DNA from: Rhodoferax saidenbachensis
Lineage (GTDB): Bacteria > Pseudomonadota > Gammaproteobacteria > Burkholderiales > Burkholderiaceae_C
DNA length: 64,000 nt
Direction of reading: 5' to 3'
Assembly (NCBI RefSeq): GCF_001955715.1
Contig: NZ_CP019239.1
Location: 4,030,001 to 4,094,000, forward strand
The notes below the pieces were generated by a model. It saw only the letters and a list, made by a program, of their open reading frames with translations, was not told the DNA's origin and made no database searches. Positions 14,595 to 60,852 of this stretch are shown one piece after another. A program made the translations under genes and the position numbers. Numbering within the stretch: the first letter of the stretch is position 1; each line of letters opens with the position of its first letter.

Positions 14595-15629
14595 TTAGCT
14601 GGCCGCCGCGCGTTGCAGGCGATCCCGCACGCCATCCCACTCCAGCGCAGCGGGCGGTGTCTCCACCCAGATCAGGCTCACGCCCTGCTCGTCCATCTCG
14701 CGCAGCTTGGCAAACAGCTCATGTGCGGCGGGTGCCGCCTGTTGTGGCATGCGGTGTTGCAGGACCAGCGGCGAGACCACTTTCAGCGCAGCGCGGCTGT
14801 ACAGCGCAATCGTCGGGCGCGGGCCGGCGGTGTGGCCCAGTACATCCAACGCTGCCTGCAATGCCTTGGTGTCCATCAGGCGTACCTTGGCTGTAGGAGC
14901 GTAGTGGGATTCCAGTGTCCCAGAGGCCCGTGGCCCAGGCTGGTTGTGCGCAAGCAGCTCCTCTTTCGATAGCAATTTTTGGCCGCAGGCCTGCTCCACC
15001 TGCAGGCTGGTGATGGAACCCGGGCGCAGCAGCACGGGCGCGCCACGGGTGCAGTCGATGATGGTGGACTCGATGCCCAGATCACACGGGCCGCCGTCCA
15101 GAATCGGCAGCGCGTCGCCCAGCTCGCTCTGCACGTGCTCGGCGGTGGTGGGGCTCACGCGGCCAAAGCGGTTGGCGCTGGGTGCGGCCACACCCCAGAC
15201 CTCGGCCTGGCCGTCTGCGGGCTTGCGCAGCGTCGCCAGCAGCGCCTGCGCCACCGGGTGGCTGGGGCAACGCAGGCCAATGGAGTCCTGCCCACCGGCC
15301 GCAGCCGCCCCTACGCCGGCGCGCCGAGGCAGGATCAGCGTAAGCGGCCCGGGCCAGAAGGCCGACATGAGCTGCTGTGCAAACGCGGGCACCTGCGTGG
15401 CGAAATGCGCCACACCGGACATGCCACCATCAAATGCCGCCACATGCACGATCAGCGGATGGTCGGCCGGGCGACCCTTCGCCGCAAACACTTTGGCCAC
15501 GGCCACGTCACTGGACGCATCGGCGCCCAAGCCATACACCGTCTCGGTTGGCATGCCAATCAGGCCTCCGGCCCTTATGGCATCTGCGCAAGCAGCTATG
15601 GATTCAGGAGCAGACGCGGGGAGAATCAT
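14595..15629 (-). CDS. tsaC: Threonylcarbamoyl-AMP synthase (Sua5/YwlC type)
   Basis: Makes L-threonylcarbamoyladenylate from Thr, bicarbonate and ATP for the t6A37 modification of ANN-decoding tRNAs. The 344-aa length indicates the long Sua5 form, with a YrdC domain (about 10-205; PTETVYGLGADA, KGRP..HPLIVH, SANRFGRVSPT) and a C-terminal Sua5 domain. It is 24 nt downstream of purK and probably co-transcribed with purE-purK. Two copies of the 51-nt dispersed repeat lie in frame inside it, at residues about 6-22 (APESIAACADAIRAGG) and about 219-235 (LLSKEELLAHNQPGP). Neither interrupts the recognisable core motifs. Confidence 0.93.
   Translation of the reverse strand: MILPASAPESIAACADAIRAGGLIGMPTETVYGLGADASSDVAVAKVFAAKGRPADHPLIVHVAAFDGGMSGVAHFATQVPAFAQQLMSAFWPGPLTLILPRRAGVGAAAAGGQDSIGLRCPSHPVAQALLATLRKPADGQAEVWGVAAPSANRFGRVSPTTAEHVQSELGDALPILDGGPCDLGIESTIIDCTRGAPVLLRPGSITSLQVEQACGQKLLSKEELLAHNQPGPRASGTLESHYAPTAKVRLMDTKALQAALDVLGHTAGPRPTIALYSRAALKVVSPLVLQHRMPQQAAPAAHELFAKLREMDEQGVSLIWVETPPAALEWDGVRDRLQRAAAS
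14925..14975 (-). repeat. 51-nt dispersed repeat, copy 1 (inside sua5)
   Basis: On the minus strand it reads TTGCTATCGAA, then AGCTGCTTGCGCA and a degenerate GGGCC end. It is in frame with sua5 and encodes part of the linker between the YrdC and Sua5 domains. The 3' half (GGGCTAGAGGCC in better copies) is eroded. Confidence 0.75.
15563..15613 (-). repeat. 51-nt dispersed repeat, copy 2 (N-terminus of sua5)
   Basis: On the minus strand it has ATAGCTGCTTGCGCA, then ATAAGGGCCGGAGGCC, with the same 51-nt spacing as the other copies. It encodes ESIAACADAIRAGG at the very start of the YrdC domain, a stretch that also fits the normal family pattern. Confidence 0.75.
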
Positions 15630-15653
15630 GGCAAGCAGGAACGGCTGACAGGC

Positions 15654-16823
15654 CTAGAACGCCTCGATACCCAGGAGACGCGCCGCTTCCAGCGCGGTCG
15701 TGCGTACGCGGTGTGTGGAAGCGCCGGTGATATTGAGGTGGCCCATCTTGCGGCCCTTGCTGGCCTTGAGCTTGCCGTACAAGTGCAGATGTGTACCGGG
15801 CAAAGCCAGTACTTTCTCCCAAGGAGGTACACCACCTTCGGGCCAAATGTCACCCAACAGGTTGAGCATGATGGACGGGCTGTGCTGGCGCGGCTGCGTC
15901 AGCGGCAGGCCCGCCAGCGTGCGCACCTGCAGGTCAAACTGCGAGACATCGCAGGCGTCCATGCTGTAGTGGCCGCTGTTGTGCGGGCGCGGCGCCATCT
16001 CGTTGACGACCAGGCTGCCGTCTTCCAACACAAAGAATTCCACGCAAAGAACGCCCACATACTGCACGCCATCTGCTATCGATTTCGCAGCTGCTACCGC
16101 ACGCTCCACAAGGGCTGGAGGCAGATTTCCTTCATAAACCTCGGTCACGGCCAGAATGCCGTCGCGGTGCAGGTTGCGCTGCACCGGCAGGTTCACACAG
16201 GTACCGTCGGCGCCACGCGCCACGATGACCGAGCATTCCAGCGCCAGCGGCAGCATCTTTTCCAGTACGCAGGGCACCTGCTTCAGGTCGGCCCAGGCAG
16301 CGGCCAGTTCGGCGGACGTCTTGACGCGCACCTGGCCCTTGCCGTCGTAACCCATGCGCGCGGTTTTCAGGATGCCGGGCAGCAGGCTGGCATCGACTGC
16401 CTTCAACTGCTCGGGCGTCTCGATCACCGCATACGGCGCACATGGCACACCGCACGTCACAAAGTGCGCCTTCTCGGCCGCACGGTCCTGGGCAATCGCC
16501 ACGGCACTGCCTGCCGGCGCCACCGGGCGGCTGGCGGCCAACTGGTTCAGTGCTTGGGCGGGCACGTTTTCAAATTCGGTGGTGATGGCAAACGACACCG
16601 CCGCCAAGCGCGCCAACCCCTCGGGGTCCGTATAGGCAGTCTGGATATGGTGGTGGCTGACACGGCCCGCGGGGCTCACCGGGTCCGGGTCCAGCACCGC
16701 GGTGAAAAAGCCCATGCGCTGCGCGGCGTGCACAAACATGCGGCCGAGCTGGCCGCCGCCCATCACCCCGAGCGTGATCTCTTTGCCGCCGCCCAAGCCC
16801 AATGCGTCATGCCCCGCCATCAC
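15654..16823 (-). CDS. purK: N5-carboxyaminoimidazole ribonucleotide synthase PurK
   Basis: ATP-grasp enzyme converting AIR, bicarbonate and ATP to N5-CAIR in de novo purine synthesis; PurE takes the next step. The 389-aa protein has the N-terminal [11 protein letters not shown] loop, [10 protein letters not shown], the ATP-grasp segment [12 protein letters not shown], and the metal-site block [12 protein letters not shown]. It overlaps purE by 4 nt, so the two are translationally coupled. A copy of the 51-nt repeat is in frame at the segment [18 protein letters not shown], without disturbing flanking conserved blocks. Confidence 0.96.
16073..16123 (+). repeat. 51-nt dispersed repeat, copy 3 (inside purK)
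   Basis: Plus-strand TGCTATCGATTT, AGCTGCTACCGCA and AAGGGCTGGAGGC, gapless against the copy at 47902-47952. I count about 38 of 49 positions identical by eye. It is read through by purK on the opposite strand in the same frame as the copies in fmt and the 47865 gene. Confidence 0.7.
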
Positions 16824-17323: not shown

Positions 17324-17359
17324 CCTTTAATTTTACGTTTTTGCCTCAAGCTAGCCCAA

Positions 17360-18316: not shown

Positions 18317-18333
18317 AACACGACGCGCCCTAA

Positions 18334-18416
18334 GCCAGCGCGGAGGGGCCAAGCCCCGGGCCTCATGGTGCCAAATGCGCACAAATCGGCCCGGGACTTG
18401 GCCCCTCCGCGCTGGC
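18334..18416. terminator. Long inverted repeat between cnoX and DUF305 gene
   Basis: Two 29-bp arms (18334-18362 and 18388-18416) are reverse complements with one mismatch, around a 25-nt loop. The arms contain GCGCGGAGGGGCCAAG and its complement. They lie between convergent genes. The structure could serve as a bidirectional terminator or be a REP-like element; there is no T-tract. Confidence 0.6.
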
Positions 18417-18421
18417 GCTGC

Positions 18422-18811: not shown

Positions 18812-18906
18812 GAAGGTTCCTCAATCACTGCCAAGCGCAGTCAGACAGTAGACCGCATCGAGCGACCCAAGTTCCGACGAATCGCTTGCGCTGGATCAAG
18901 AACCGG

Positions 18907-19284: not shown

Positions 19285-19335
19285 GGCAACTCCCGGTAGC
19301 ACTGCCCACCAATATGGCGGGCAGCGCAGGCTGCG

Positions 19336-20009: not shown

Positions 20010-20060
20010 TCGCTACCAAAATGATAGCCGCTTGCGCAATACCGACGGGGGCTAGAGCCC
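20010..20060 (+). repeat. 51-nt dispersed repeat, copy 4 (intergenic)
   Basis: Plus-strand TCGCTACCAAAATGATAGC, GCTTGCGCA and GGGGGCTAGAGCCC, 51 nt long. It lies in the gap between the 3' end of purC and the start of the PfpI gene. Confidence 0.85.
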
Positions 20061-20074
20061 CAAAACGTTCCGAA

Positions 20075-32608: not shown

Positions 32609-33705
32609 CAGGAGACCTCAGGCGCAGCAGGCAGCTCAAAACGCTGACCCACTTGCAAAGGACAGCCGCGCAGAAACTCGGCAGCAGGCAGGCGCTTGCC
32701 ACCGGGACGCTGCAGCTCGGTCAAAATTACTACGGAATTCATAGATGCTACCGCAATGCCTTCGGGGGCTAGCGCCGTTATTTCCCCACAATACTTAGGA
32801 GGAGTAACTATGCGCATATCGTCGCCAGCACGTTCACCCCAAATGCGTATGGCCTTGCCGCTGATGACTGATATGCCCCATCCCGGCGTGAGCACATGAG
32901 CACCCCAGACCTTGATGACCTCGCCATTCAGCACGGTGCTTGCGCCCGGAAAGGGGTTGAAGGCGCGCACGCGGCGCACGATGGCGGCGGCGTCCAGGCG
33001 CCAGTCGATAGGCGCCTCATGCTTCTCGATCTTGTGGGCGTAGGTCACGCCCTCTTCAGGCTGCTTCACGGGCCGCAAAGTACCCTGTGCCGCCAGGTCC
33101 AGCGCCTGGACCACCAGCGTAGCCCCCAGATCAGCCACCTTGTCGTGCAGCGTGGCCGTGGTGTCCGTGTCTGCAATCGGGAGGCTTTGTTTGAGCAGCA
33201 TGTCACCCGTGTCCAGCCCCACATCCATCTGCATGATGGTGACGCCTGTCTCGGCATCGCCCACTTCAATCGCGCGGTGTATGGGTGCGGCGCCGCGCCA
33301 GCGCGGTAACAAAGAACCGTGGATATTCAGGCAACCAAATTTGCCACCAATGGCCATATCGTCGAGCACCCATTGCGGCAGGATCAATCCGTACGCAGCC
33401 ACCACCATCACATCGGCCTGCGCGTCGGCAATCGCCTGGCGCGCCGCAGCGGCGTCTTCGGGATATTTGCCGTCCAGGCGCAAGCTGCGCGGCTGGGCCA
33501 CGGGAATCGCGTGTTCCAGCGCAAACTGCTTGACAGCAGAGGCCTGCAACTTCATACCGCGCCCGGCCGGGCGGTCCGGCTGGCTCAGCACCAGAGCGAT
33601 GGTGTGGCCCGCTGCATGCAGGCGCTCCAGCGCCACGCGGGCAAACTCTGGCGTACCTGCAAAGATGACACGTAGGGGCCGTACTGCCCGAATGCCTTGA
33701 GCCAC
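32608..33705 (-). CDS. fmt: Methionyl-tRNA formyltransferase
   Basis: Formylates initiator Met-tRNA using 10-formyl-THF. The 365-aa protein is somewhat longer than the usual 310-320 aa. It starts with a GTG giving [21 protein letters not shown]; the extra length is partly at the N-terminus. Conserved blocks are [41 protein letters not shown] and a C-terminal OB fold. A copy of the 51-nt repeat encodes [17 protein letters not shown] in that OB domain. It abuts def, with the stop of def directly before its GTG. Confidence 0.95.
32727..32776 (+). repeat. 51-nt dispersed repeat, copy 5 (inside fmt)
   Basis: Plus strand TTACTACGGAATTCATAG, GATGCTACCGCA and GGGGGCTAGCGCC; 50 nt, one base shorter than the other copies. 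It is read on the opposite strand by fmt in the same frame as the purK and 47865-gene copies. Confidence 0.7.
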
Positions 33706-35668: not shown

Positions 35669-36829
35669 ATGGAGCGCGAAGAACTCTCCGCTTGGTTGCG
35701 GCTACAACTGAGTCCGGGTGTCGGCGACGCGACCGCCCGCAAACTGCTCGTCGCCTTTGGGCTGCCTGCAACCATATTCCAGCAATCCGAAGCGGCGCTT
35801 TCACAAGTCGTCAGCCAGCCCTTGGCCCAGGGGCTTCTGCGAGAACCCGCGGAACTGGCCACCCTGCTGGACACCACCTGGGCCTGGCTGCAAGCCAAGC
35901 CACAGGAGCATCGTGTCCTGACGCTGGGCGACCCTGCTTATCCCCAATGCCTGCTCCACATGGAAGACCCGCCCCTGCTGCTGTACGCCATGGGTGCCGC
36001 AGAGGTTTGGCAACACAATGGTCTCAACGCCGTGGCGCAACGCAGTATTGCCATCGTCGGCAGCCGCAACCCCACGCCGCAAGGAGCCGCCAATGCCCAG
36101 CAGTTTGCCCAGGCCCTGGCAGAGGCCGGACTGACCATCGTCTCCGGCATGGCGTTGGGCGTGGATGGGGCGGCCCACCAGGGCGCGCTGGACGGGGCTG
36201 CAGTTGGCACCCTGGCCACCATTGCCATCGTCGGCACCGGACTGGACCGGGTCTACCCCCGGCAGCACCGGGATCTGGCGCACCGCATCTGCCAGCAGGG
36301 CGTGATCCTCAGCGAATATCCGCTGGGTACGCCACCGCTGTCTGCCAACTTCCCCCGGCGCAACCGCATCATCTCGGGCCTGTCGCTGGGTACGCTGGTG
36401 GTGGAAGCGGCGCTGCAATCGGGTTCACTGATTACGGCGCGCCTGGCCAGCGAACAGGGCAAGGACGTATTCGCCATTCCCGGCTCCATCCACTCTACCC
36501 AGGCGCGCGGCTGCCACGCGCTGATCAAACAGGGAGCGAAGCTGGTGGAGAGCGCACAGGATGTGCTGGAAGAGTTGCAACTGGCGCCCGGAATCACTCC
36601 TGATTTGATAGCTGCTTGCGCATATCAGACGGGGGCTGAAGACGCTTTTAATACCCAAAGCAATGCGCTACTGGAGGCACTTGGTTTTGATCCGGTGGGC
36701 CTGGATGCATTGCAGGCACGCACCGGGCTCGACACCCCAACACTCCAAGCCCAACTGATGGCGCTGGAACTGCAGGGGGAGCTTTGCCGGCTGACTGGCG
36801 GCCTGTTTCAGCGCATGGCGAAGGCCTGA
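35669..36829 (+). CDS. dprA: DNA-processing protein DprA
   Basis: Loads RecA on incoming single-stranded DNA during natural transformation. The 386-aa protein has an N-terminal helix-hairpin-helix/SAM-like part, a Rossmann fold with GSRNPTPQGAANA, SGMALGVDGAAHQGAL and the hallmark FPRRNRIISGLS, and a C-terminal winged-helix (DML1-like) domain ending at LTGGLFQRMA. A copy of the 51-nt repeat encodes LIAACAYQTGAED, lying between Rossmann and winged-helix domains. Presence of dprA alone does not prove competence. Confidence 0.95.
   Translation: MEREELSAWLRLQLSPGVGDATARKLLVAFGLPATIFQQSEAALSQVVSQPLAQGLLREPAELATLLDTTWAWLQAKPQEHRVLTLGDPAYPQCLLHMEDPPLLLYAMGAAEVWQHNGLNAVAQRSIAIVGSRNPTPQGAANAQQFAQALAEAGLTIVSGMALGVDGAAHQGALDGAAVGTLATIAIVGTGLDRVYPRQHRDLAHRICQQGVILSEYPLGTPPLSANFPRRNRIISGLSLGTLVVEAALQSGSLITARLASEQGKDVFAIPGSIHSTQARGCHALIKQGAKLVESAQDVLEELQLAPGITPDLIAACAYQTGAEDAFNTQSNALLEALGFDPVGLDALQARTGLDTPTLQAQLMALELQGELCRLTGGLFQRMAKA
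36594..36644 (+). repeat. 51-nt dispersed repeat, copy 6 (dprA inter-domain linker)
   Basis: TTTGATAGCTGCTTGCGCA then ACGGGGGCTGAAGAC, in frame with dprA and placed in the linker before the winged-helix domain. The reading frame is the same as copy 2 in sua5 (IAACA). Confidence 0.8.
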
Positions 36830-37469: not shown

Positions 37470-37483
37470 ACCCCCACGCTCCA

Positions 37484-37565
37484 CCGCTGCGCGGGTCGCT
37501 GCCCCCCAAGGGGGCTAACTCGCCTTGGGGCGGCCCGGCGGCGAGTTGTCACTCGCCGCGAACTA
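37484..37565. repeat. GC-rich structured intergenic repeat
   Basis: Contains the hairpin CCCCCAAGGGGG (37503-37514) and AACTCGCC (37517-37524) pairing with GGCGAGTT (37540-37547), with a further ACTCGCCGCG after. It lies between convergent smg and DUF1631 genes. From memory, similar GC-rich blocks recur at convergent junctions in Comamonadaceae; it may act as a bidirectional terminator. Confidence 0.5.
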
Positions 37566-47352: not shown

Positions 47353-47868
47353 ATGGAAACACTTGACCGATTCGACATCGCCATCCTGAACGAGTTGCAA
47401 AACGACGGCCGCCTCAGCAACGCCGAACTGGCCACCCGTGTGGGCCTGAGTGCCGCGCCCTGCTGGCGGCGCGTGAAGTCACTGGAAGACAGCGGCTTCA
47501 TCACCGGCTACCGCGCCGAGATCAACCGCCAGAAAATGGGCTTGGGCGTGTTGGCCTTTGTGCGGCTGGACGCCAACCGCAACAGCGGTGATGTGCTGCA
47601 GGCACTGGAAGAAGCGATACGCACCATCCCCGAGGTCATCAGCTGCCACTACATCAGCGGCACCGGCACCTTTGAGCTGCAGGTGGTGAGCCGCGACCTG
47701 GCCACCTTCAGCCAGTTTGCGCGCGAAGTGCTGATTAACCTGCCCAATGTGAAAGACCTGCACACCAGCTTCTCGCTGGGTGAGGTGAAGGCCAGCAGCG
47801 CCTTGCCGCTGGGCCACCTGCAGCCGCAGCCTGCGGCCACGTCTACGGCGACCCGAGGCCGGGCATGA
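47353..47868 (+). CDS. Lrp/AsnC family transcriptional regulator
   Basis: 171-aa regulator with an N-terminal HTH (about 5-50; LSNAELATRVGLSAAPCWRRVKSLE split across the recognition helix) and a C-terminal RAM/AsnC ligand-binding domain (VISCHYISGTGTFELQVV). The ATG at 47353 is preferred; one at 47344 adds three residues. Divergent from the 2-oxoacid oxidoreductase gene, so it probably responds to an aromatic or branched amino acid and controls that gene (inference). A short Pro/Ala/Thr tail follows the RAM domain. Its stop overlaps the next start by 4 nt. Confidence 0.92.
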   Translation: METLDRFDIAILNELQNDGRLSNAELATRVGLSAAPCWRRVKSLEDSGFITGYRAEINRQKMGLGVLAFVRLDANRNSGDVLQALEEAIRTIPEVISCHYISGTGTFELQVVSRDLATFSQFAREVLINLPNVKDLHTSFSLGEVKASSALPLGHLQPQPAATSTATRGRA

Positions 47869-48542
47869 AACGGCGCGACATCCTTATTCATGCATCATTT
47901 GGGCCTCTAGCCCTTATGCAGTATGCGCAAGCAGCTCCTGATTCGATAGCAAATCCAGCCACATTGCCACTGCGCAACCTGCAGATCGAGGTGCGCCAGG
48001 TGCAGTCGGGCGAGAGCCAGCGCAATGAGGCTGGCAGCGCAGGCGGGGTGCAGATCGACAGCCAGGGCCAGGTAGCAGTGCAGGGCACGTTGCGACTGCA
48101 GCAGCGCCAGTCGCAACAGTCGTCCAGTGCCAGCCAACTGGTGCTGGTGCTTAACGGGCGCAGCGCGCGTATTGCGCTGGGCACGGTCTGGCCGCTGCGC
48201 GTGTTCCAGACCTGGCTGCGCGATGGCCGGCTGGTCACCACCCAGGGCACCTTGCTGATACAGGCCGGCACCGGCTTCAGCGCCACACCGCGCTGGGATG
48301 GCTCGGACGTGGTGGAGCTGGAAATTGCGGCGCAACAGGCGCCAGGGAACGCAGCGAATGCCGTGGGTGCGTTGCAGAACAACAGCAGCACCACGAGTGT
48401 GGTGGTGGTTCCGCTAGGGGAGTGGAGTACGGTGGCGCAGTCCGAGCAGAGCAGCCAGGACCAGCAGTCCGGGCTGGCCGGTGGCGCCCGGGTTTCGACC
48501 CAGTCGCGCACCGACGTGCAGGTGCGCGTGACCGCGCGTTAA
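47865..48542 (+). CDS. Small exported protein of unknown function
   Basis: 225-aa protein starting MKRRDILIHASFGPLALMQ. It has a twin-arginine-like KRRD start, a hydrophobic segment and a predicted cleavage after AQA. Residues about 13-29 are encoded by a 51-nt repeat copy, so part of the export signal derives from it. The mature part is Gln/Ser/Val-rich with beta-type pattern (LVLVLNGRSARIALG, DVVELEIAAQQ), resembling a periplasmic beta-domain; no family recognised. The start codon overlaps the Lrp stop (ATGA). Function unknown. Confidence 0.75.
   Translation: MKRRDILIHASFGPLALMQYAQAAPDSIANPATLPLRNLQIEVRQVQSGESQRNEAGSAGGVQIDSQGQVAVQGTLRLQQRQSQQSSSASQLVLVLNGRSARIALGTVWPLRVFQTWLRDGRLVTTQGTLLIQAGTGFSATPRWDGSDVVELEIAAQQAPGNAANAVGALQNNSSTTSVVVVPLGEWSTVAQSEQSSQDQQSGLAGGARVSTQSRTDVQVRVTAR
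47902..47952 (-). repeat. 51-nt dispersed repeat, copy 7 (encodes a signal peptide)
   Basis: One of the best copies. Plus strand reads GGCCTCTAGCCCTTATGCAG, GCGCAAGCAGCT and CGATAGCAA. It is in frame in the 47865 gene and gives GPLALMQYAQAAPDSIAN, including the AQA-A cleavage site. Confidence 0.9.
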
Positions 48543-48554
48543 ACCTGTCAGCGA

Positions 48555-49523
48555 CTAACGCGCGACGAGCGCGGTGCGTTGGAGCACGTCATTGATGGTG
48601 CTGGACAGTTCTTCGGCAACGAATTTGGCCACGTAACCGTCGGCGCCCACACTCTTCACATGGCCTTCGTTGGTGGTTCCCGTCAACGACGAATGGATGA
48701 TCACCGGGATGTTCTTGAAACGGGTGTCCTGCTTGATGTTGCGCGTCAGCGTGAAGCCGTCCATCACCGGCATTTCCAGATCGGTCAGCACCAGCGCCAC
48801 CTTGTCACGCGCAGTCTTGCCTTCGGCGGCTGCCTTGGTGTGGATGTCTCCCAGCATGTGCCAGGCCTCTTCGCCGTTCTTGCCCATCACGTAGGGGATG
48901 CCCATGGCCTTGAGGCCCTGCTCCAGCATCATGCGGGCCACGGGTGAGTCGTCGGCCGCCACCACGATGGTGCCTGGAGGCAAATGCACCTTGGCGACGT
49001 TTGCGCCTTCGGGCAGCGCCTGGTGTTCGTTGGGGAACACATTGCGCAGGATCTGCTCCACGTCCAGCACCTGGGCCAGACGGGTGTCTTCGGCTGCACC
49101 ATCGAGCCGCGCGATGCTGGTGACCAGACCGCCGCCGCTGTTTTCAGCGGACAACACGTGTTTCCACTCCAGACGCACGATTTCGTTGACTTCTTCGACC
49201 GCAAAGGCCTGCGTGGTTCGCGCGAACTCGGTGACCAGCAGGATGCCCAGGCCCTTGGTGGGCCGGCAACCCACCACCATGGGCAGGTTGATTACGGTGA
49301 TCATCTGGCCGCGAATATTGGCCACACCCATGACTTCGGGTGGTGAGTTGACCATGGCGGTGATCTCGGGCATCACCAGAATTTCGCGCACCTTGAACAC
49401 GTTGATACCAAACGACTCACGCCGCTCGGAGTGTTCGGCCTCGCCCAAACGGAACAGCAGCAGCTCAAACATGCTGTTTCCAGCCAGATTGGTCCGCTCG
49501 TCAATGTCTTTCATGCTGCTCAT
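48555..49523 (-). CDS. cheV: CheV-type chemotaxis coupling protein
   Basis: 322-aa fusion of a CheW-like domain (about 15-165) and a receiver domain (about 185-320). The CheW part shows FGINVFKVREIL and GVANIRGQMITVINLP; the REC part has Asp191/192, phosphoacceptor Asp248 (VLTDLEMP) and a C-terminal lysine in GYVAKF. It likely couples receptors to CheA with feedback by phosphorylation. The ATG at 49523 has GGAAG upstream; an in-frame ATG at 49547 is less likely. Stand-alone here, 133 nt from mltA. Confidence 0.94.
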   Translation of the reverse strand: MSSMKDIDERTNLAGNSMFELLLFRLGEAEHSERRESFGINVFKVREILVMPEITAMVNSPPEVMGVANIRGQMITVINLPMVVGCRPTKGLGILLVTEFARTTQAFAVEEVNEIVRLEWKHVLSAENSGGGLVTSIARLDGAAEDTRLAQVLDVEQILRNVFPNEHQALPEGANVAKVHLPPGTIVVAADDSPVARMMLEQGLKAMGIPYVMGKNGEEAWHMLGDIHTKAAAEGKTARDKVALVLTDLEMPVMDGFTLTRNIKQDTRFKNIPVIIHSSLTGTTNEGHVKSVGADGYVAKFVAEELSSTINDVLQRTALVAR

Positions 49524-49656
49524 TTTTATCTTCCGTTTGTTATGCACAGAAAGTCTACTGCGCCCATGGTAGCGCGGTCTAGGGCCTGTTTACCCTTATT
49601 TTGCACATTGCATTGTGGATCGTATAGGCAAGCAGCCGGGGGCTGAACCGTGCCAT

Positions 49657-50802
49657 CTATTTCGGCCACAGCACCCACAACTGAAGCGGCTGGCGCATGC
49701 GCCCGGCCAGCTCACCAGCCTGTGCACCCCAGCCAGCAAAGTAGTCGGCGCGCACCGCGCCGGTGATGGCACTGCCGGTGTCCTGCGCGAGCACCAGTTT
49801 TTGCAGGTTGGTCTGCGGTCCGTTGGAGACCAGCCAGACCGGCGCACCGTAGGGAATACTGGCCGGATCTACCGCGATGGAGCGCCCCGGTGTCAGTGGC
49901 ACACCCTGTGCGCCCTTGGGCCCGGCAACGGCTTCCAGATCAGGGATCGCTTCTTCGCGGAAAAACACCATGCGCGGATTGCTCCACAGCAGCTCCTGCT
50001 GGCGCTGCGGGTTTTGCGCCAGCCATTCCTTGATGCCGGGCCAGGAGGCGTCCTTGATCAGTCCCTGGTCCAGCAGCCAGCGGCCCACGCTGCGGTAGGG
50101 TTGGTCGTTGGTGCCCGCATAGGCCAGACGCGTCCAGTGCTGGCGGCCATCGGCCTCCGTCACACGCACGCGGCCGGAGCCCTGGATCTGCAGCACCAGC
50201 GCATCGATCGGGTCGGCCAGATAAACAATCGCACGGCCCTGCAGCGCCGCCTGGGCTTCGGGCAGGGTGTCCATTTCCTGGCGCGTGAACCAGGGCTTGC
50301 GCTGGGCCAGATTGGCGGGCGGCTGGTACAGCGGCACCGCAAAACCGGCGCGCGGCACGCGGCTGGCTTCCAGTATCGGCTCGTAATAACTGGTGAGCAG
50401 CCCATTGGGGTCGCCCTGCGCCGACTCCACGCGGTACGGCTGCAGGCGCGACTGCATCCAGGCGCGCTGCTCTTCAGGGCTGCCAATGCTCAGGCGCCGC
50501 ACATCCCCACACAGCGCGGTGAACGGCGGCACCGCACGTTCGCAGCTTTTGATCCAGGCGTTCCAGGCTTCGTACAAACTGTCTTCGCCAAAGCCCGGCA
50601 GCTCCGACCACGCCACCGGCACCCAGCGGCCCGGGCCGCGGTTGAGCGTACCGGCCACGTTGACAGGCGCACTACTCGGTACGCTGACCACCGGCGCCCG
50701 CGATGGGGGGTACAGCGGCGGCGCGCTGCCGCAGGCGGCCAGCATTCCTACAATCGCCAGCACAGCCCACCGCACACCTGTGTGGGCCAGGAGCCAATTC
50801 AT
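49657..50802 (-). CDS. mltA: Membrane-bound lytic murein transglycosylase A
   Basis: Outer-membrane lipoprotein that cleaves peptidoglycan glycan strands to 1,6-anhydro products. The 381-aa protein starts MNWLLAHTG with lipobox LAAC (Cys24). The MltA/3D fold is shown by GLLTSYYEPILEASR, IQGSGRVRV, YAGTNDQPYRSVGRWL, and the catalytic-Asp region KLVLAQDTGSAITGAVRADYF. Its ATG shares the CATG with the divergent 48-aa microprotein, so the two start codons overlap by two bases. Any promoter for mltA therefore lies within that gene. Confidence 0.95.
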   Translation of the reverse strand: MNWLLAHTGVRWAVLAIVGMLAACGSAPPLYPPSRAPVVSVPSSAPVNVAGTLNRGPGRWVPVAWSELPGFGEDSLYEAWNAWIKSCERAVPPFTALCGDVRRLSIGSPEEQRAWMQSRLQPYRVESAQGDPNGLLTSYYEPILEASRVPRAGFAVPLYQPPANLAQRKPWFTRQEMDTLPEAQAALQGRAIVYLADPIDALVLQIQGSGRVRVTEADGRQHWTRLAYAGTNDQPYRSVGRWLLDQGLIKDASWPGIKEWLAQNPQRQQELLWSNPRMVFFREEAIPDLEAVAGPKGAQGVPLTPGRSIAVDPASIPYGAPVWLVSNGPQTNLQKLVLAQDTGSAITGAVRADYFAGWGAQAGELAGRMRQPLQLWVLWPK

Positions 50803-50947
50803 GACACTGTTATTGCTGGAAGCGCTGGGCGCTGGATTTCTGTTCGTAGGCATCATCTGGTGGACCATGTTTGCGGGCCGCAAGAACGGCGAGCTGCCAG
50901 ACGATACATCGTCCGTGGACAAAAATTCAGACAAAAAAGGCCTTTAG
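50801..50947 (+). CDS. 48-aa single-TM microprotein
   Basis: Very short gene: MTLLLLEALGAGFLFVGIIWW then TMFAGRKNGELPDDTSS to the end. One N-terminal TM helix (about 3-24) is followed by a basic then acidic soluble tail, so it is probably inner-membrane with the tail in the cytoplasm. I recall similar tiny proteins (TM plus GRK motif) as conserved in related genomes, but cannot verify it. The stop TAG is supplied by the left end of a 51-nt repeat. Its ATG overlaps the mltA start codon on the other strand. Confidence 0.65.
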   Translation: MTLLLLEALGAGFLFVGIIWWTMFAGRKNGELPDDTSSVDKNSDKKGL

Positions 50948-50989
50948 CCCTTATGCAGCCTGCGCAAGCAGCTACTGAATTTATAGCAA
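50939..50989 (-). repeat. 51-nt dispersed repeat, copy 8 (stop of microprotein)
   Basis: Plus strand GGCCTTTAGCCCTTATGCAG, GCGCAAGCAGCTACTG and TATAGCAA. Its TAG ends the 48-aa gene; the right end is 11 nt before the stop of the convergent nitrilase gene. Confidence 0.9.
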
Positions 50990-50999
50990 TTAAAACCAT

Positions 51000-51815
51000 C
51001 TAGAGAATACGGTGCTGCAGCGCCGGCAACTGGCTGCGGCGCTGGGCCAGCGCACTGGCGTCCAGATCGGCCAGCACCACACCGGCCTCCTGCGCCTGCT
51101 GCCCCAGTACCTGGCCCCAGGGGTCGATCAGAATGGACTGGCCCCAAGTGTGGCGCCCATTGGGGTGCACACCGCCCTGGGCCGCGGCGGCCACAAAACT
51201 CAGGTTCTCAATGGCACGGGCGCGCAGCAGCACCTCCCAGTGCGCCTGGCCCGTGGTATGGGTGAAGGCGCTGGGCACCAGAATCAGGTCCACACCCGCC
51301 TGCGCATACCCGCGGTAAAGCTCAGGGAAGCGCAGGTCGTAACACACACTCATGCCCACATTCCAGGTGTGTCCGTCCTTGGACGGCAGCGCAAAGTGGG
51401 TGGGCGTGCCACCGCGCTCCAGTACGCGGGATTCGTCATAACGCTCGGTGCCGTTGTCAAAGCGGAACAGGTGGATCTTGTCGTAACGCGCCACACATTG
51501 CCCTTGCGGATTGAACGTCAGGCTGCTGTTGAAAACGCGGTCTTTCTGCGTGGCGCGCAGTGGCAGCGTGCCTGCGACGATCCACAGCCCGTGGGTACGT
51601 GCTGCGTTGGCCAGAAAGTCCTGCATGGGGCCGCTGCCAAAGTCTTCCTGGATGGCGAGTTTGTCGCTGTCGTGCTGGCCAATCAGGCAGAAATACTCGG
51701 GCAACACGGCCAGCTCGGCACCGGCCTGCGCGGCCTGGGCCAGCAGCACGCCGGCCTGGGCCAGGTTCTCGGCCAACACGCCGGTAGACACCATCTGGAT
51801 TGCGGCAACTTTCAT
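51000..51815 (-). CDS. Carbon-nitrogen hydrolase (nitrilase superfamily)
   Basis: 271-aa enzyme with the intact Glu-Lys-Cys triad: Glu40 (AVLPEYFC), Lys113 (RYDKIHLF) and Cys158 (MSVCYDLRFPELYR). It fits the Nit1/omega-amidase branch (e.g. deaminated glutathione amidase), common next to glnE or yhdP in this group; the exact amide substrate is not shown. Cytoplasmic, no signal peptide. It is 24 nt downstream of yhdP on the same strand. Confidence 0.9.
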   Translation of the reverse strand: MKVAAIQMVSTGVLAENLAQAGVLLAQAAQAGAELAVLPEYFCLIGQHDSDKLAIQEDFGSGPMQDFLANAARTHGLWIVAGTLPLRATQKDRVFNSSLTFNPQGQCVARYDKIHLFRFDNGTERYDESRVLERGGTPTHFALPSKDGHTWNVGMSVCYDLRFPELYRGYAQAGVDLILVPSAFTHTTGQAHWEVLLRARAIENLSFVAAAAQGGVHPNGRHTWGQSILIDPWGQVLGQQAQEAGVVLADLDASALAQRRSQLPALQHRIL

Positions 51816-51839
51816 CGGGGCTCCTGGGCTCTGTTCACA

Positions 51840-54800: not shown

Positions 54801-55925
54801 CGCGATCTGCGCCATGGCTGCCAAGTCCAGCTTGTCGGCGGTGATCTCCCCGCGTGCGGGGTTGCGGCCTTCGGCGGCATAGGTGCGCAGCGCCACATTG
54901 CCTCCAGGCCAGTGCAGGCCATCTTCGGTTTCAAACTGCAATGCGTGGGTGAAATACTCGGTACCACCCTGCAACTGCTGTATGCCCACGCGGCCCGACA
55001 CATTGCGCAGAGCCAGAGGCTGCAGGCGCGCGCCGGCCGTCACCTGCACACCATTCATCTGTACATCGGCCGTGGCCCCGGTGACCACGCCCTTGTCGAC
55101 ATCGGCCCAGGCGCGCAGGGCACCCGCACCGTGCGCCAGGTCCACGCCCACGTCCACATACTGGCGCAAATGCGCCAGGTCCACCTGCGGGAAACTGGCG
55201 TAGAGCTGCCCTTGCCACTGCTTCCACTGGCCGGCACTGCGCTCCAGCAGCGGTTGTTTAAAGACCCCGGAGGCACTCCAGCGCGAGCCCCACTCGGGCG
55301 GTGGGGTCGCATCCACCCGCAGAGAATGGGTGCGCGGCCCGTTGCGCAGCACCATGTCCACATCATTGAGCACCAGCGGGACGGCGGAGCGCATCTCGTC
55401 GGTCCAGTGCACCGAGCCATGGCGTATGGCCAGCTCGGTTTGCGAGAAAACCCAGTCTGCAGCCTTGCCGTCTTCGGTTTGGGTATCGGGCACCGGCATA
55501 CCGGCCACCCAGATGCGGCCATCTGCCGTGCGCCGCACTTCCAGCACCAACCCTTCCACATAGAGCTGCTCAAACCCGAGACCGATGACCGAACGCGGAG
55601 AGAGCGCCGCCAGCACCGAGGGCAGGCGCAAGGCTTCGCGCCCCTGCGCATCGATCAGGCTGATATTGTTGAGTTCAAACGAAGGGATCAGGCCGTTGGA
55701 GCGCGCGGTGATGGCACCAATGCGTACGGTCACCCCCAGAGTGCGTGTGGCCTGCTGTTCCAGCCACGGACGCAATTCCCCGATTCGCGGCACAATCAGA
55801 AAATGCAAGCCTCCCCAGACCAGCGCCACCGTGATCCACGCTAAGGACAGCAAGCCCATCGCCCAATGGGCGACCACGGCACCCGCCTTGAGCCAGGGCG
55901 TAGGGGTTGGCGACTGTTCAATCAT
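51840..55925 (-). CDS. yhdP: YhdP-type AsmA-like giant protein
   Basis: 1361-aa protein with one N-terminal TM helix (about 18-48) and a long periplasmic beta-rich body, with DUF3971/AsmA-like C-terminal region. Blocks such as FEGFAFDFLRGDVAIEQGI-like FAFDFLRGDVAIEQG and MDGQADIAKETQAIKVVVIPE are typical. YhdP-family proteins bridge inner and outer membrane and move phospholipids. Its ATG is only 15 nt from glnE, so the promoters must overlap. No interruption seen over 4 kb. Confidence 0.92.
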   Translation of the reverse strand: MIEQSPTPTPWLKAGAVVAHWAMGLLSLAWITVALVWGGLHFLIVPRIGELRPWLEQQATRTLGVTVRIGAITARSNGLIPSFELNNISLIDAQGREALRLPSVLAALSPRSVIGLGFEQLYVEGLVLEVRRTADGRIWVAGMPVPDTQTEDGKAADWVFSQTELAIRHGSVHWTDEMRSAVPLVLNDVDMVLRNGPRTHSLRVDATPPPEWGSRWSASGVFKQPLLERSAGQWKQWQGQLYASFPQVDLAHLRQYVDVGVDLAHGAGALRAWADVDKGVVTGATADVQMNGVQVTAGARLQPLALRNVSGRVGIQQLQGGTEYFTHALQFETEDGLHWPGGNVALRTYAAEGRNPARGEITADKLDLAAMAQIAQRLPVGDTAHKLMGNIAPRGLVESLQGNWRGPLEQLEGYAAKGRISQLTVPGGDFNGVKRLGIQGLNADFDLNQMGGKAQLVLDKGIFDAYGILEEAAVPFDQLRADVQWQRDGQSLTVSASNVRFANADAQGELQFKWQSAPATSGATAGPGVLDLEGSLSRAEGTRVHRYLPLELDKEVRDYVRDAVLGGSASAVKFKLKGDLARFPYSDAKQGDFRISADVRNASYAYVPSSLLHKGSLPWPALQQVSGELVIDHATLQVKNASATLVNGRNLQISKAEATVSQLYGDAQVAVSLEAKGPLTEVLGFVNGSPLGALINKVLAKTTASGNADYRVKVAFPIRDVERATAQGTVTLAGNDVQLSPETPRLTRARGQLGFTETGITVTGGQARAVGGDVRIDGGLSVLTGTAAAQKAGPQVLRIQGTATAEGLRQAKELGVVARMAQYATGTGSYSATLGLRGGVPEVLLTSSLTGMALNLPAPFSKIAETPMPLRLETTAVRSSLVPDTSGTVHAQDQLQLDVGRLASVTYVRDVSGAEARVLRGAIAVGLAADESAPMPSEGVVANINVQRADLDAWSSVLSSASGSAPSASNLADMSYLPTSLAVRATELVMGGRQINKVVVGGGRDGLLWRANLDATELSGYVEYRQPVGAAAGRFYGRLARLSIGQSTAQEVESLLDDQPSSIPALDVVVEDFELRGKKLGRVEVDAVNLGAAGPRDGPREWRLNRFNIITPEAVLTASGNWTNINAQAASAPSGSRRNIRERRRTVMNFKLDINDAGVLLERFAMPGVVRRGQGKIEGQVAWMGSPITLDYPSLGGNFNVNVETGQFLKADPGIAKLLGVLSLQSLPRRLTLDFRDVFSEGFAFDFLRGDVAIEQGIARTTNLQMKGVNAVVLMDGQADIAKETQAIKVVVIPEINAGSASLIASAINPLIGLSTFLAQVILRGPLMQAATQELFIDGTWVEPRVTKVERKTAPAAPAKE

Positions 55926-55940
55926 CGTGCTTTGAAAACC

Positions 55941-58673
55941 ATGTCAGGAATTATCACCCGCAATGGGCCTCCTCCTCTGTCTGGAGGGTCGCGTTTTGGC
56001 CAGCGCATCCAGCGCCGCTACGCCACACAACTCGGGCTTCTGGCACCCGGCACGCCTGGGCGGCAATCCATACAGGCGCTGTATGACGTGCTGCGGGCCG
56101 ATGGAGCCGATGCCTCCACCGCGCTGCGCACCACGCGCCAACTGGTGCTGGAGCGCCTGGTGGGCCTGGACTGCGACAAGGGCGTGGACCTGCAAGTGAT
56201 CACCGGCGCCATGACCGAACTGGCCGAAATCGCCTTGCAGGTGGCCTACACCGAGAGTTGCCAGTCCCTCAATGCCGTACACGGTGCGCCACTGGGACCA
56301 CAGGGCGAACCGGCACAGCTGTGCATCATCGGCATGGGCAAGCTGGGCGCACGCGAGCTCAATGTGTCCAGCGACATTGACCTGATCTACATCTACGACC
56401 ACGACGGCGAAACCGCCGGCAACAGCGAAGGCCGCGGCCGCATCTCCAACCAGGAGTACTTTGGCAAGCTGGTACGCGCCATCTACACGCTGGTGGGCGA
56501 CACCACCGAACACGGCTTTGTGTTCCGCGTAGACCTGGCGCTGCGCCCCAACGGCAACTCCGGCCCACCCGCCGTATCGCTGGGTGCGCTGGAAGAATAT
56601 TTCCATGTGCAGGGCCGCGAGTGGGAGCGTTTTGCCTGGCTCAAGAGCCGCGTGGTGGCACCCGCCGAGGCCATTGGTTCGTCGTGTGCGCAAAGTCTGC
56701 GCGGCGTGGTGGTGCCCTTTGTGTTCCGCCGTTACCTGGACTACAGCGTGTTTGACGCGTTGCGGGTACTGCACCGCCAGATCCGCGAACACGCGAGCAA
56801 ACGCAGCGCCGGCCGGCCGGAGCGCAGCAACGACGTGAAGCTGTCGCGTGGCGGTATCCGCGAGATTGAATTCACTGTGCAGCTGCTGCAGGTGGTGCGC
56901 GGCGGACAGTTCCCCGAGTTGCGCACCCGCCCCACCCTGAGTGCGCTGCAGCGCCTGGTGACCGCCGGGCTCATGCCGCAGGACGCCGCCGACGCCCTGG
57001 CGCGCGCCTACATCTTCCTGCGCCGCGTGGAGCACCGCATCCAGTACCTGGAGGACCAGCAGACCCATGTGCTGCCCACCTCCGATACCGATCTGGGCTG
57101 GATCGCGGCCACGCTGGGCTTTGAGAACAGCGCAGACTTTCTCTGTGAGCTGGACGGCCACCGTGAACTGGTGGCGCAGGAATTTGATGCGCTCTTGGGC
57201 GGCTCGCAACAGGGTGGCTGCAAAAAAGGCACGTGCAACGGCAAAAGCGGCGGCCCCGGGCTGGACGACTTTGACGCATTGCTGGAGCTGCTGAGCGGCG
57301 CGTTCCGCGAACGTATTTCCCACTGGCGCGAGCACCCGCGCATCCTGGGCCTGCGCGAAGAATCACGCGCCCGGCTGGGCCGCCTGCTGCTGCGCACCGC
57401 GCAGTGGGTCACCGAGGGCAAGGTGGGCGACGCCGCCGCCGTGCGCCTGGTCGACTGGATAGAACCGCTCTTGCGCCGTGACAGCTACCTGGCCCTGCTG
57501 CTGGAACGCCCCAACGTGCACGAGCGACTGCTGCGCATGCTGGGCGCCGCGCGTTGGCCCGCACGTTACCTGCTCAAACACCCCGGCGTGATCGACGAGC
57601 TTGCCGGCGGCTCCATGCTGGACGAGCGTTTTGACGCGGCCGACTTTGAGCGCGAACTGGAGCGCCGCCGCAACGCACTGCAAGGCAGCGCCGAAGACGA
57701 CGACGAAAACCTGCTCAACCTGCTGCGTCGCGCCCACCACGCCGAGGTGTTCCGCACGCTGGCGCGCGACCTCGAAGGCAAGCTCACTGTGGAGCAGGTG
57801 GCCGACGACCTGAGCGCGCTGGCCGAGAGTGTGCTGCGCACCACCACCCGCTGGTGCTGGTCACGCCTGAAAAACAAACACCGCCCGGACCACCGCTTTT
57901 CCATCATTGCCTACGGCAAGCTGGGCGGCAAGGAACTGGGCTACGGCTCGGACCTGGACATCGTGTTCCTCTACGACGATGACGACGAACGCGCCCCCGA
58001 GGTCTATGCCGCGCTGGTGCGCAAACTCATTAACTGGCTCACCGTGAAGACCGGTGAGGGCGACCTGTATGAGATCGACACCGCGCTGCGGCCCAACGGC
58101 AACTCGGGCCTGCTGGTGACCAGCTTCAACGCCTACGCCAACTACCAGCAGCAGCGCGGCAGCAACACCGCGTGGACTTGGGAACACCAGGCCATCACGC
58201 GCGCACGCTGTGTGTTGGGCACCACGGATTTGCAAGCCCGCTTCGACGCCGTGCGCGCCGCCGTGATTGGCGCAGTGCGTGAAGAGCGTGGCCTGCGCGA
58301 AGAGATTGGCAGCATGCGCGAGAAGGTGCGCAGCGCCCACCCGGTGAAGGGCACGCTGTTTGACGTGAAGCACAGCCCCGGCGGCATGGTGGACATCGAG
58401 TTTGCCGTGCAGTTTCTGGTGTTGTCGCAAGGCTGCAAACACCCGGAACTGCTGGACAACGTGGGCAATATTGCCCTGCTGCTGCGCGCGCAGGAGTGCG
58501 GCCTGTTGCCAGCACCCGTGGGCGAGAACGCTGCCGCGGCCTACCGCGTGCTGCGCCAGATCCAGCACAAGGCGCGGCTGGACGAAGTGCCTACGCAGGT
58601 CGAAGACGGTGTGGCACAGACCGAGCGTGCTGCAGGCCTGGCGTTGTGGGCCGCAGTGTTTGGCAGCTTATAA
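55941..58673 (+). CDS. glnE: Bifunctional glutamine synthetase adenylyltransferase/removase GlnE
   Basis: Adenylylates and deadenylylates glutamine synthetase, under PII control. The ATG at 55941 gives 910 aa. It has two nucleotidyltransferase domains: the N-terminal deadenylylase with GMGKLGARELNVSSDIDLIY and the C-terminal adenylylase with AYGKLGGKELGYGSDLDIV. Each is followed by a helical domain (e.g. SRGGIREIEF, SPGGMVDIEF). A short Gly/Cys/Lys-rich insertion (GGCKKGTCNGKSGG) occurs near residue 430. It is divergent from yhdP. Confidence 0.96.
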   Translation: MSGIITRNGPPPLSGGSRFGQRIQRRYATQLGLLAPGTPGRQSIQALYDVLRADGADASTALRTTRQLVLERLVGLDCDKGVDLQVITGAMTELAEIALQVAYTESCQSLNAVHGAPLGPQGEPAQLCIIGMGKLGARELNVSSDIDLIYIYDHDGETAGNSEGRGRISNQEYFGKLVRAIYTLVGDTTEHGFVFRVDLALRPNGNSGPPAVSLGALEEYFHVQGREWERFAWLKSRVVAPAEAIGSSCAQSLRGVVVPFVFRRYLDYSVFDALRVLHRQIREHASKRSAGRPERSNDVKLSRGGIREIEFTVQLLQVVRGGQFPELRTRPTLSALQRLVTAGLMPQDAADALARAYIFLRRVEHRIQYLEDQQTHVLPTSDTDLGWIAATLGFENSADFLCELDGHRELVAQEFDALLGGSQQGGCKKGTCNGKSGGPGLDDFDALLELLSGAFRERISHWREHPRILGLREESRARLGRLLLRTAQWVTEGKVGDAAAVRLVDWIEPLLRRDSYLALLLERPNVHERLLRMLGAARWPARYLLKHPGVIDELAGGSMLDERFDAADFERELERRRNALQGSAEDDDENLLNLLRRAHHAEVFRTLARDLEGKLTVEQVADDLSALAESVLRTTTRWCWSRLKNKHRPDHRFSIIAYGKLGGKELGYGSDLDIVFLYDDDDERAPEVYAALVRKLINWLTVKTGEGDLYEIDTALRPNGNSGLLVTSFNAYANYQQQRGSNTAWTWEHQAITRARCVLGTTDLQARFDAVRAAVIGAVREERGLREEIGSMREKVRSAHPVKGTLFDVKHSPGGMVDIEFAVQFLVLSQGCKHPELLDNVGNIALLLRAQECGLLPAPVGENAAAAYRVLRQIQHKARLDEVPTQVEDGVAQTERAAGLALWAAVFGSL

Positions 58674-58681
58674 GCTGTTTA

Positions 58682-58732
58682 GGCCACTAGCCCGCACAGG
58701 GACTGCGTGAGCAGCTTCTGTTTTGATAGCAA
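58682..58732 (-). repeat. 51-nt dispersed repeat, copy 9 (intergenic)
   Basis: Plus strand AGGCCACTAGCCCGCACAG, GCGTGAGCAGCTTCTG and GATAGCAA; partly eroded. It lies between glnE and the convergent PLD gene, next to a palindrome AGCTTATAAGCT (58665-58676) that spans the glnE stop. Confidence 0.8.
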
Positions 58733-58754
58733 ATTCGCACTGCCAACTGGCCGC

Positions 58755-60446
58755 TCAGAGCATTTCATCGGGCGCAAAGGGCGCTATCAGCGTGGTGATG
58801 AATTGCAGGCCCAGACTGGCGTCTGGCTCACTCACCGCATCCGGGAACGCCGCGCCCGGCGGTGCACGCCACCGCAACTGCTGGTCCCGCAACTCGACAC
58901 GGTAGGCGTCTTTGGCCAGCGTGGGCTCAATCAGGCGCGTCGCTTCGGCGGAGATGGTGCGGTTGCGGATCACGATGGCCACTTCGCTGTTGTGCAATTG
59001 CGAGCGCAGATCCAGGTTCATGGAGCCCACCACCAACAGCGCGTCGTCCATCACCACGACCTTGGAATGCAGGCTGGCGCGTGAACTGCCTGCCCCTCCA
59101 CTACCACTTCCACTGCCCAAAGCCGACGCGCCAAAGCTGCGGAAGGTGCCCTCCTGCTCGGCCCGCATTTCGTACAACTCTATACCCAGGCCCAGCAACG
59201 CACGGCGGTAACGCGCATACCCCACGTGGGCGGCCGGTGCGTCGTTGGACGCCAGCGAATTGGTCAACACGCGTATCTGCACATCGCGTCGGCGCAGGTT
59301 GGCAAAGGTCTCCAGCATGCGTTCGCCAGGCACAAAGTAGGGCGAAACGATCAGCACCGAACGCTGCGCCTGCGCCATGAGCTGCAGCAGGCCGTCGACC
59401 GCGGTGTCCTGTGCGGCTTCGGTGGCGTCCGCATCCGCCGCGATTTTGGAGGGCTTGTCCACCAGCAACACCGACGGCGCCCAGGTCCACGGCAGCAGGC
59501 TCAAGTCCGTGGTGTCCGGCAGGGTGGACGGCGCCGGTGCAGCATCGGTGGGTGCAGTGGCCAGGGTCACTACGGCAGGCGGCGCAGCGGGCACGGGGCC
59601 TGCAGTTTCCTGGTCAACGGCCGCTACAGCAGGCTGGGGTTTGAGCGCGTCAATCTCCTGAAGCGTCATCAGCGATTCCACCGGGTAGGCCAGTGGGTTG
59701 TTCCAGTACTGGTCAAAGCTGCGCGACAGCTCGCGCACGATGCGCCCCGCAGCCAGCACGTCGATGTCGACAAAGTTGGTGCCTTCGCTCTGGCCAAAGT
59801 AGGTCTCACCCAGATTGCGCCCGCCGGTGATGGCCACCGCGTTGTCGGCCACCAGCATCTTGTTGTGCATGCGCCGCTGCATGCGCCCCGCGTCTTTGAG
59901 GTTGCCCAGCACCCGCGTCACCATGGAGCCACGGCCACCAGGCAGCGGGTTGAACAGGCGCAGCTCGATGTTGCGTTCAAACGCCAGCTTGAGCACCTGC
60001 GCGTTTTTGCCCGAGGTGTTGAAGTCATCCAGCAGGATACGGATGCGCACACCCCGGCCCGCCGCGTCGCGCAACGCGTCAAACAGGCGCTCGGTGGTCT
60101 CGTCGGCAAAGATGGCGTAGTACTGGATGTCCAGCGTCTTCTGCGCCGCCTTGATCAGCACCATGCGGCTGGAAAACGCCAGCTCGGCATCGCCCACCAG
60201 CGCAAACCCCGAGTCATTGCGCGTGCCCGCCTTCTGCGCCCGCACCGCCACCAGACTGCCCAGCCGCGTCTCGGCCGGATTGGTCAGTGCCGTGGACACC
60301 GGCCGGTCTACTGCGCTGGGAAGCGACGCGCAGCCAGTGAGCCACAGGCTGAACAACACTAGGGCCAGCGTGCGCCACCCCGTTCTTCGCGCAAGGGTTG
60401 TGGCCGGGTGGTTGTGGAAATGAGCAGGCTGCATGGTGCAGGCCAC
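58755..60446 (-). CDS. Phospholipase D / cardiolipin synthase C-like lipoprotein
   Basis: 563-aa protein with a lipobox LTGC (Cys39) and two HKD motifs: His194-Lys196-Asp201 (HNKMLVADN) and His460-Lys462-Asp467 (HSKVVVMDD). This pattern resembles ClsC/YmdC, which makes cardiolipin from PE and PG in E. coli with YmdB. A Pro/Ala/Thr-rich insertion (about 268-350) divides the two halves. Another ATG at residue 5 could be used. No ymdB-like neighbour is present, so the substrate is not certain. Confidence 0.88.
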   Translation of the reverse strand: MACTMQPAHFHNHPATTLARRTGWRTLALVLFSLWLTGCASLPSAVDRPVSTALTNPAETRLGSLVAVRAQKAGTRNDSGFALVGDAELAFSSRMVLIKAAQKTLDIQYYAIFADETTERLFDALRDAAGRGVRIRILLDDFNTSGKNAQVLKLAFERNIELRLFNPLPGGRGSMVTRVLGNLKDAGRMQRRMHNKMLVADNAVAITGGRNLGETYFGQSEGTNFVDIDVLAAGRIVRELSRSFDQYWNNPLAYPVESLMTLQEIDALKPQPAVAAVDQETAGPVPAAPPAVVTLATAPTDAAPAPSTLPDTTDLSLLPWTWAPSVLLVDKPSKIAADADATEAAQDTAVDGLLQLMAQAQRSVLIVSPYFVPGERMLETFANLRRRDVQIRVLTNSLASNDAPAAHVGYARYRRALLGLGIELYEMRAEQEGTFRSFGASALGSGSGSGGAGSSRASLHSKVVVMDDALLVVGSMNLDLRSQLHNSEVAIVIRNRTISAEATRLIEPTLAKDAYRVELRDQQLRWRAPPGAAFPDAVSEPDASLGLQFITTLIAPFAPDEML

Positions 60447-60852
60447 TGTAGCGGAAGCGGCGATTTATGTGTGAGCGGTAGGGCACACAAGGACTTATAT
60501 GTCTTTTAGGCCTCCAGCCCTTGTGCAGACTGCGCAAGCAACTATTGTTTTGATAGTAAAGAGATGGGCTTACGCTGCATTTCGCTCTGCAGGGTAAGCA
60601 GTCCGGGTATCCATTCTCCGGCCCACGCTCGCGGGCGAAGGTTTTGGGTTGCCCGAGGTTCGCTCGTAAACGGCATTGTTGGCGTACCTACTATTTGGCA
60701 ATTGCGAATGGGGCCTGCGCCCGGATACCCGGGCTACCTAACCAAATATGAATTTGCGGCGAAAGTGAGCGGTTGCCAATCACCGAAAATGGGGAACCCA
60801 AGTCCGCAAAAAATGGCGTCCAATGCGATTGGACTTCAGAAAGGCATTCGGT
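60447..60852. other. Gene-poor stretch with repeat and atypical sequence
   Basis: No convincing gene. The left part (60509-60559) holds repeat copy 10. The rest includes short palindromes such as CCCGGATACCCGGG (from about 60721) and drifts toward lower GC ahead of the next gene. A 106-codon frame (60564-60884) lacks family features and is judged non-coding. This could be a remnant of an integrated element. Confidence 0.4.
60509..60559 (-). repeat. 51-nt dispersed repeat, copy 10 (intergenic)
   Basis: Plus strand GGCCTCCAGCCCTTGTGCAG, TGCGCAAGCAACTATTG and GATAGTAA. It lies upstream of the PLD gene start in the gene-poor stretch. Confidence 0.85.

Follow-up and report, generated by a model that had tools for sequence, protein, structure and literature searches.

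The DNA uptake sequence (DUS) of Neisseriaceae is 12 bp long and the Rickettsia palindromic elements are extra inserted segments; both invite comparison with a dispersed motif of ~57 bp in Rhodoferax saidenbachensis, ten copies of which lie in the window analysed here (64,000 nt of contig NZ_CP019239.1, positions 4,030,001 to 4,094,000; coordinates below are those of the window). The uptake signal sequence (USS) of Pasteurellaceae is modelled at 31 bp, and uptake sequences are rare in newly acquired DNA and have a relatively even distribution (PMC7811141). They are described as lying inside open reading frames (ORFs) in 35-65% of cases with no orientation bias, and as changing via point mutation and not by insertion of the whole sequence, the preferential uptake of short self sequences being reported for Pasteurellaceae and Neisseriaceae (PMC1939737), and they have species dialects (PMC3630211). 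Repetitive extragenic palindromes (REPs) are extragenic and mostly clustered, with rayt genes that are delimited by two inverted REPs (PMC2817692). In the open-licence literature we found no related paper on the core strings of the motif and none on uptake sequences in Comamonadaceae or Burkholderiales.

A preliminary description of the window, made from its letters, reported a 51-nt element in ten copies. An nhmmer profile, seeded with nine window copies and then iterated on the sampled R. saidenbachensis genome, recovers ten copies at 30.8-53.5 bits (E 9e-15 to 1.1e-7), which upholds the repeat unit but not its size, the unit being slightly longer at 55-57 nt, with the blocks TTGCTAT, TAGCTGCTTGCGCA, GGGCTAGAGG and TTT and the consensus TTGCTATnnAATTnATAGCTGCTTGCGCAnnnTCCAnGnGGGCTAGAGGCCnATTT. 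The resulting motif model has 56 positions at 0.994 bits, i.e. some 56 bits per site. In an evenly spread sample of 864 kb (20% of the 4.26-Mb genome, window included) there are 128 copies, about one per 6.8 kb or an extrapolated ~630 per genome, and matches of at least 10 bits number 138 against 0 in the reversed sequence. The 13-base exact core AGCTGCTTGCGCA occurs 243 times across the genome, its backwards spelling once. The genome-wide scan that the preliminary description had called for thus confirms that the dispersed family is real and not due to chance. Short sub-blocks by themselves are weak evidence for such a family: with up to two mismatches allowed, the window has 11 matches to GGGCTAGAGGCC where 6.6 are expected, and 10 of 100 shuffles reach 11. 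No near-identical pairs were seen among the copies, the highest nearest-neighbour identity being 0.92. The 128 copies are divided equally between the strands (64 and 64), as are, nearly, the exact cores in the same sample (25 on the plus strand and 27 on the minus strand); a replichore strand bias was considered and rejected, its apparent signal being consistent with a list of the first 50 places on each strand.

With genes taken from a home-made caller (87% coding, sua5 being truncated at its element-bearing start), 66 of the 128 copies are intergenic, 17 partially overlap a gene and 45 lie inside genes, 25 of them antisense and 20 sense. The preliminary description had seen in the coding copies an analogue of the Rickettsia palindromic elements, an extra segment tolerated because its length is a multiple of three. 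A dispersed unit in frame within housekeeping genes is indeed common to both, but most of the tested coding copies appear to overlay existing coding sequence without added length: when 11 in-gene sites were compared with homologues, seven were in place, one was weakly in place, two were ambiguous and one was inserted. The clearest case is purK (16074..16128, +, antisense, 40.4 bits), where the alignment has no gap in any of 80 relatives, 62 of which lack the element, while in the other 18 a copy can be recognised over the same codons. Records with a copy at this site are named Rhodoferax, Polaromonas, Acidovorax, Giesbergeria, Simplicispira, Curvibacter and others, and the nearest named purK orthologues (84%) are from Rhodoferax bucti, Comamonadaceae bacterium OS-4 and a Comamonadaceae metagenome-assembled genome. 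The copy at the sua5 N-terminus (15557..15612, -, 48.2 bits) likewise corresponds to a normal Sua5 segment, gap-free in 56 of 61 rows. The comparison with orthologues, which the preliminary description had itself named as a refuting test, came out against insertion at these two sites and at the five that follow.

Furthermore, NAD kinase, YggS and ProRS have no extra segment relative to proteins of solved structure, an HIBDH-like protein has 0-1 residue extra at its copy, and the DnaE2 of R. saidenbachensis is shorter there than its counterpart of solved structure. At its copy YggS is of equal length across the 120 homologues listed; the printed ones are element-like in peptide, which makes E. 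coli YggS the better control. A weak dnaE2 copy in the congener G197 aligns gap-free to the R. saidenbachensis gene, and a second dnaE2 copy, in another congener, G112, exceeds the R. saidenbachensis gene by 33 nt at that point, a gain of insertion type. The fmt copy (32727..32782, +, antisense, 30.8 bits) is counted as weakly in place, given an alignment of its second domain that scores 1.0 bit and an equal length in G197 and G112. The two ambiguous sites, which could be insertion or overlay, are the second one in sua5 (14924..14976, -, 31.8 bits), in a variable linker where 68 of 77 relatives' rows are gapped, and that in dprA (36594..36648, +, sense, 37.0 bits), in the linker that leads to the winged helix, judged from the protein alignment and from the loci of relatives.

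The copies within genes carry a cost in codon usage. Codon adaptation is 0.350 in the 45 in-gene copies as opposed to 0.682 in the remainder of the same genes and is lower inside the copy in every one of the 45, with codons of relative use below 0.1 making up 10.4% of those inside copies and 1.4% of those elsewhere in the same genes. Mainly one frame is used per orientation (22 of 25 antisense copies and 15 of 20 sense copies), which we read as a way of avoiding the stop codons that the other frames would contain; in the window the pattern is as first described, with one frame common to purK, fmt and the ORF at 47865-48542 and another to the sua5 N-terminus and dprA. Outside genes, 48 copies are flanked by tandem genes, and 36 of these sit closer to the stop codon of the upstream gene. 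The copies also keep their distance from one another: among the 124 copies that score 22 bits or more, none of 87 gaps between neighbours is below 500 bp where 7.9 would be expected (0 of 2000 simulations), and the coefficient of variation of the spacing is 0.727 compared to 0.854, a relatively even arrangement. By the profile, the three 20-kb stretches with the lowest GC (0.54, 0.54 and 0.58) are free of copies, as is one stretch of ordinary GC.

Related genomes, whose scanning had also been called for, carry the motif across one family. It was matched in 75 of 200 family genomes (R. saidenbachensis included) from 54 of 126 sampled genera, with at least 20 matches in 46 of the 200, R. saidenbachensis again included and counts being capped at 28 per genome, and across the class in one of 184 genomes, this being R. 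saidenbachensis itself; the scan used the R. saidenbachensis model with stricter filters, so that other dialects may escape it. Such dialects exist: when the profile was iterated on 200-kb samples of four other genomes it found 26, 40, 27 and 14 copies (none in the reversed controls), and the consensuses of these lineages differ at set places. Between R. saidenbachensis and G197, 11 shared sites can be compared, some of them intergenic and others in dnaE2, sua5, purK and fmt. Differences fall in 17 of 231 cells for the information-rich columns and in 48 of 143 for the low-information columns, a comparison in which detectability in both species inflates the conservation of the former but not a switch away from the R. 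saidenbachensis profile. Column 41 has switched at all 11 sites, R. saidenbachensis always having GGGC and G197 having GCGC nine times, GCGT once and GTGC once. As site-specific odd letters are kept and the sites are varied, neither conversion of whole units nor fresh insertion explains this switch. Fourteen relatives have at least two copies each, 36 in all. Of 33 pairs of sites within one genome, 31 have the same base in column 41 (15.5 expected, 0 of 5000 shuffles), 25 in column 29 (13.9 expected, P 0.0014) and 21 in column 34 (13.4 expected, P 0.0048), these being shuffles that ignore the tree. The dialect is uniform within a genome and differs between species.

Taken together, the codon cost in genes, the switch of a column at separate sites and the even spacing point to a factor that reads the sequence. 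We would suggest, with a probability of roughly 0.4, that the copies represent one long double-stranded recognition motif upheld by such a factor, with the DNA-uptake receptor of natural transformation as the leading candidate. The proposal draws as well on the abundance of the motif, the overlay of coding sequence at most tested gene sites, the equal strands of the sample and the lack of copies in the stretches of lowest GC. Under this proposal a trans-acting reader would keep the ~57-bp motif up over the chromosome, and sites would be rewritten in place by point changes once its preference shifts. If the reader is an uptake receptor, better-matching DNA would be taken up more and would recombine over homologous sites, and by preferential uptake and recombination copies could accumulate and track the dialect of the receptor without benefit to the host gene. 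Seeding by rare insertion or recombination, followed by pointwise upkeep, would fit both the inserted and the in-place sites.

With DUS and USS the motif shares hundreds of copies, both genic and intergenic, strong over-representation across the genome, relatively even spacing, pointwise change, species dialects and, in the sample, the lack of an orientation bias. It differs from them in its density of ~1 per 6.8 kb, in some gains of insertion type and in belonging to another bacterial family. Its length keeps us from classing it with DUS or USS; it would rather seem to work like one, as a much longer recognition sequence with species dialects of its own, for which uptake is the leading guess.

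Several observations weigh against this proposal. The first is the length itself, ~57 bp in several blocks as opposed to the 12 bp of DUS and the 31 bp of the USS model, together with an information content far richer than theirs. A word of 57 bp does not arise by chance, which leaves the first seeding in place unexplained, and the scores in the sample are nearly all-or-none, with 124 copies at 20 bits or more and 14 at 10-20 bits, so that precursors are scarce and the initial acquisition of a site in place is again not accounted for. Two sites of R. saidenbachensis look inserted and here the insertion part of the first proposal stands: a MurU-like protein has 16-17 residues inserted at its copy, and at the intergenic site 20010..20062 (+, 45.1 bits) ~62 bp are missing from G112 and G002. 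Over the whole genome the plus strand has 97 exact cores and the minus strand 146, an imbalance not seen in the sample. Finally, the ComEC, ComP_DUS and GspH families are near-universal, being present in 195, 193 and 196 of 200 genomes, and when tried as receptor candidates by their presence they do not discriminate element-bearing genomes.

The strongest alternative, which we regard as possible though considerably less probable, is that the copies are sites for an intracellular DNA-binding protein of chromosome organisation or the nucleoid, which would need the motif every few kb, selection at each site keeping it and respelling it as the protein changes. The even spacing with close neighbours avoided, the concerted dialect, the codon cost borne within genes and the equal strands of the sample would all be anticipated for sites of this kind. 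This would demand that each of ~630 sites of ~56 bits be under selection strong enough to beat codon use, and the patchy loss across genera argues against an essential role.

Somewhat less likely still is a REP-like element mobilised by the Y1 transposase of the family (RAYT-type), spread by insertion and perhaps homogenised by strand exchange made by the transposase. A Y1_Tnp gene is found by Pfam in 43 of the 46 genomes with at least 20 matches and by protein search in the remaining three, and gains of insertion type, at the MurU-like gene and site 20010, also speak for it. Furthermore, lineages differ in both arms of the inverted repeat at the centre (GCGC..GCGC as opposed to GCCCA..TGGGC); such complementary changes are seen between lineage consensuses, with no helix-type coupling among the R. 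saidenbachensis copies. In 9 of 22 loci (one weak) a copy lies just downstream of the Y1 gene in the opposite orientation, but an upstream copy occurs in only two of the 22, and in none are there copies close on both sides. The Y1 gene is itself a single vertically inherited locus with a neighbour common to all 22, and of 20 element-free genomes examined, 18 have it beside the same neighbour. The query for this neighbour was a script-derived frame of 100 residues, probably in the shadow of a putative glutamate synthase gene, and marks the locus and not the gene. In R. saidenbachensis the Y1 gene abuts a copy, and its candidacy as the mobiliser is weakened by the presence of the same locus in element-free genomes. 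Measured against REPs, their composite BIMEs and RAYT genes as described (PMC2817692), the motif has the high copy number, the imperfect inverted repeat and the Y1 gene, sometimes with an adjoining copy; it departs from them in being made up of mutually avoiding singletons with no close pairs or clusters, in having a third of its copies inside genes (mostly without insertion), and in a Y1 gene that is not flanked on both sides and is also present in most element-free relatives examined. At the locus L041:1113-1860 the single Y1 transposase gene, which stands next to a conserved neighbour, is flanked by GGGGTCAGATTC and GAATCCGACCCC, and in many element-rich genomes the element or a remnant precedes TGTCCC at the Y1 locus. 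One genome has 20 Y1_Tnp matches, several identically scored, as for an insertion sequence of the IS200/IS605 type.

A plain miniature mobile element, long ago inserted and now decaying, as first proposed, is improbable and largely contradicted, since for all the dispersal of its copies, the insertions at the MurU-like gene and site 20010 and the few intermediate scores, most tested gene sites have homologues of the same length, the information-rich columns are conserved while one column flips at 11 of 11 orthologous sites, and no pair is near-identical. An RNA hairpin of the form GCTAT..ATAGC was also rejected, the pair being absent from the 30 strongest couplings and the consensus fold having -0.22 kcal/mol. 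Rfam gave no match in the window at the gathering score, and none over the copies in 47500-51500, which holds two of them, at E up to 10.

The placement first given for the window copies, two in sua5, one each in purK, fmt, dprA and ORF 47865-48542 and four at gene ends or between genes, holds throughout; fmt and dprA are named through Pfam and the other genes through ORF reading. The strongest copy (47896..47952, -, antisense, 53.5 bits) lies in the N-terminal part of ORF 47865-48542, where, read by eye, the element encodes much of a putative signal peptide of a small protein (47865-47960); at this site three relatives carry a copy in the same orientation and a fourth has an inverted copy nearby. 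Beside the copy at 20010, the intergenic ones are 50934..50989 (-, 53.0 bits), between ORFs 49657-50934(-) and 51000-51815(-), 58679..58732 (-, 39.9 bits), between the convergent ORFs 55866-58673(+) and 58755-60446(-), and 60506..60559 (-, 45.2 bits), upstream of the latter ORF.

The open-licence literature on repeats in three genera yielded one paper, on the beta-proteobacterial repeat element BRE, a repeat of ~90 bp and 69% GC that is often tandem with up to 29 copies per genome (PMC3110155). Like the motif it is a dispersed Comamonadaceae repeat that sometimes lies within genes; judged by its published description, size, tandem habit and copy number set it apart (PMC3110155). A different GC-rich dispersed repeat of ~75 bp at 37471-37548, in which no tRNA was found, has dozens of matches in four relatives (up to 95%), some of them tandem, and could be BRE.

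We consider it slightly short of an even chance that the motif represents a third independent origin of an uptake signal, in the Comamonadaceae, of ~57 bp and with dialects written pointwise into conserved genes, or, if uptake is not the cause, an undescribed reader imposing a 57-bp word across the chromosome. If true, a third case, with a far longer motif, would test how such signals arise. Since a single base has switched between two congeners at every one of the 11 sites compared, those in sua5, purK, fmt and dnaE2 among them, a search for proteins that co-vary with the dialect should lead to the putative reader. For the family as a whole, it would mean that a DNA word, in addition to protein function, shapes many short coding segments in Comamonadaceae.

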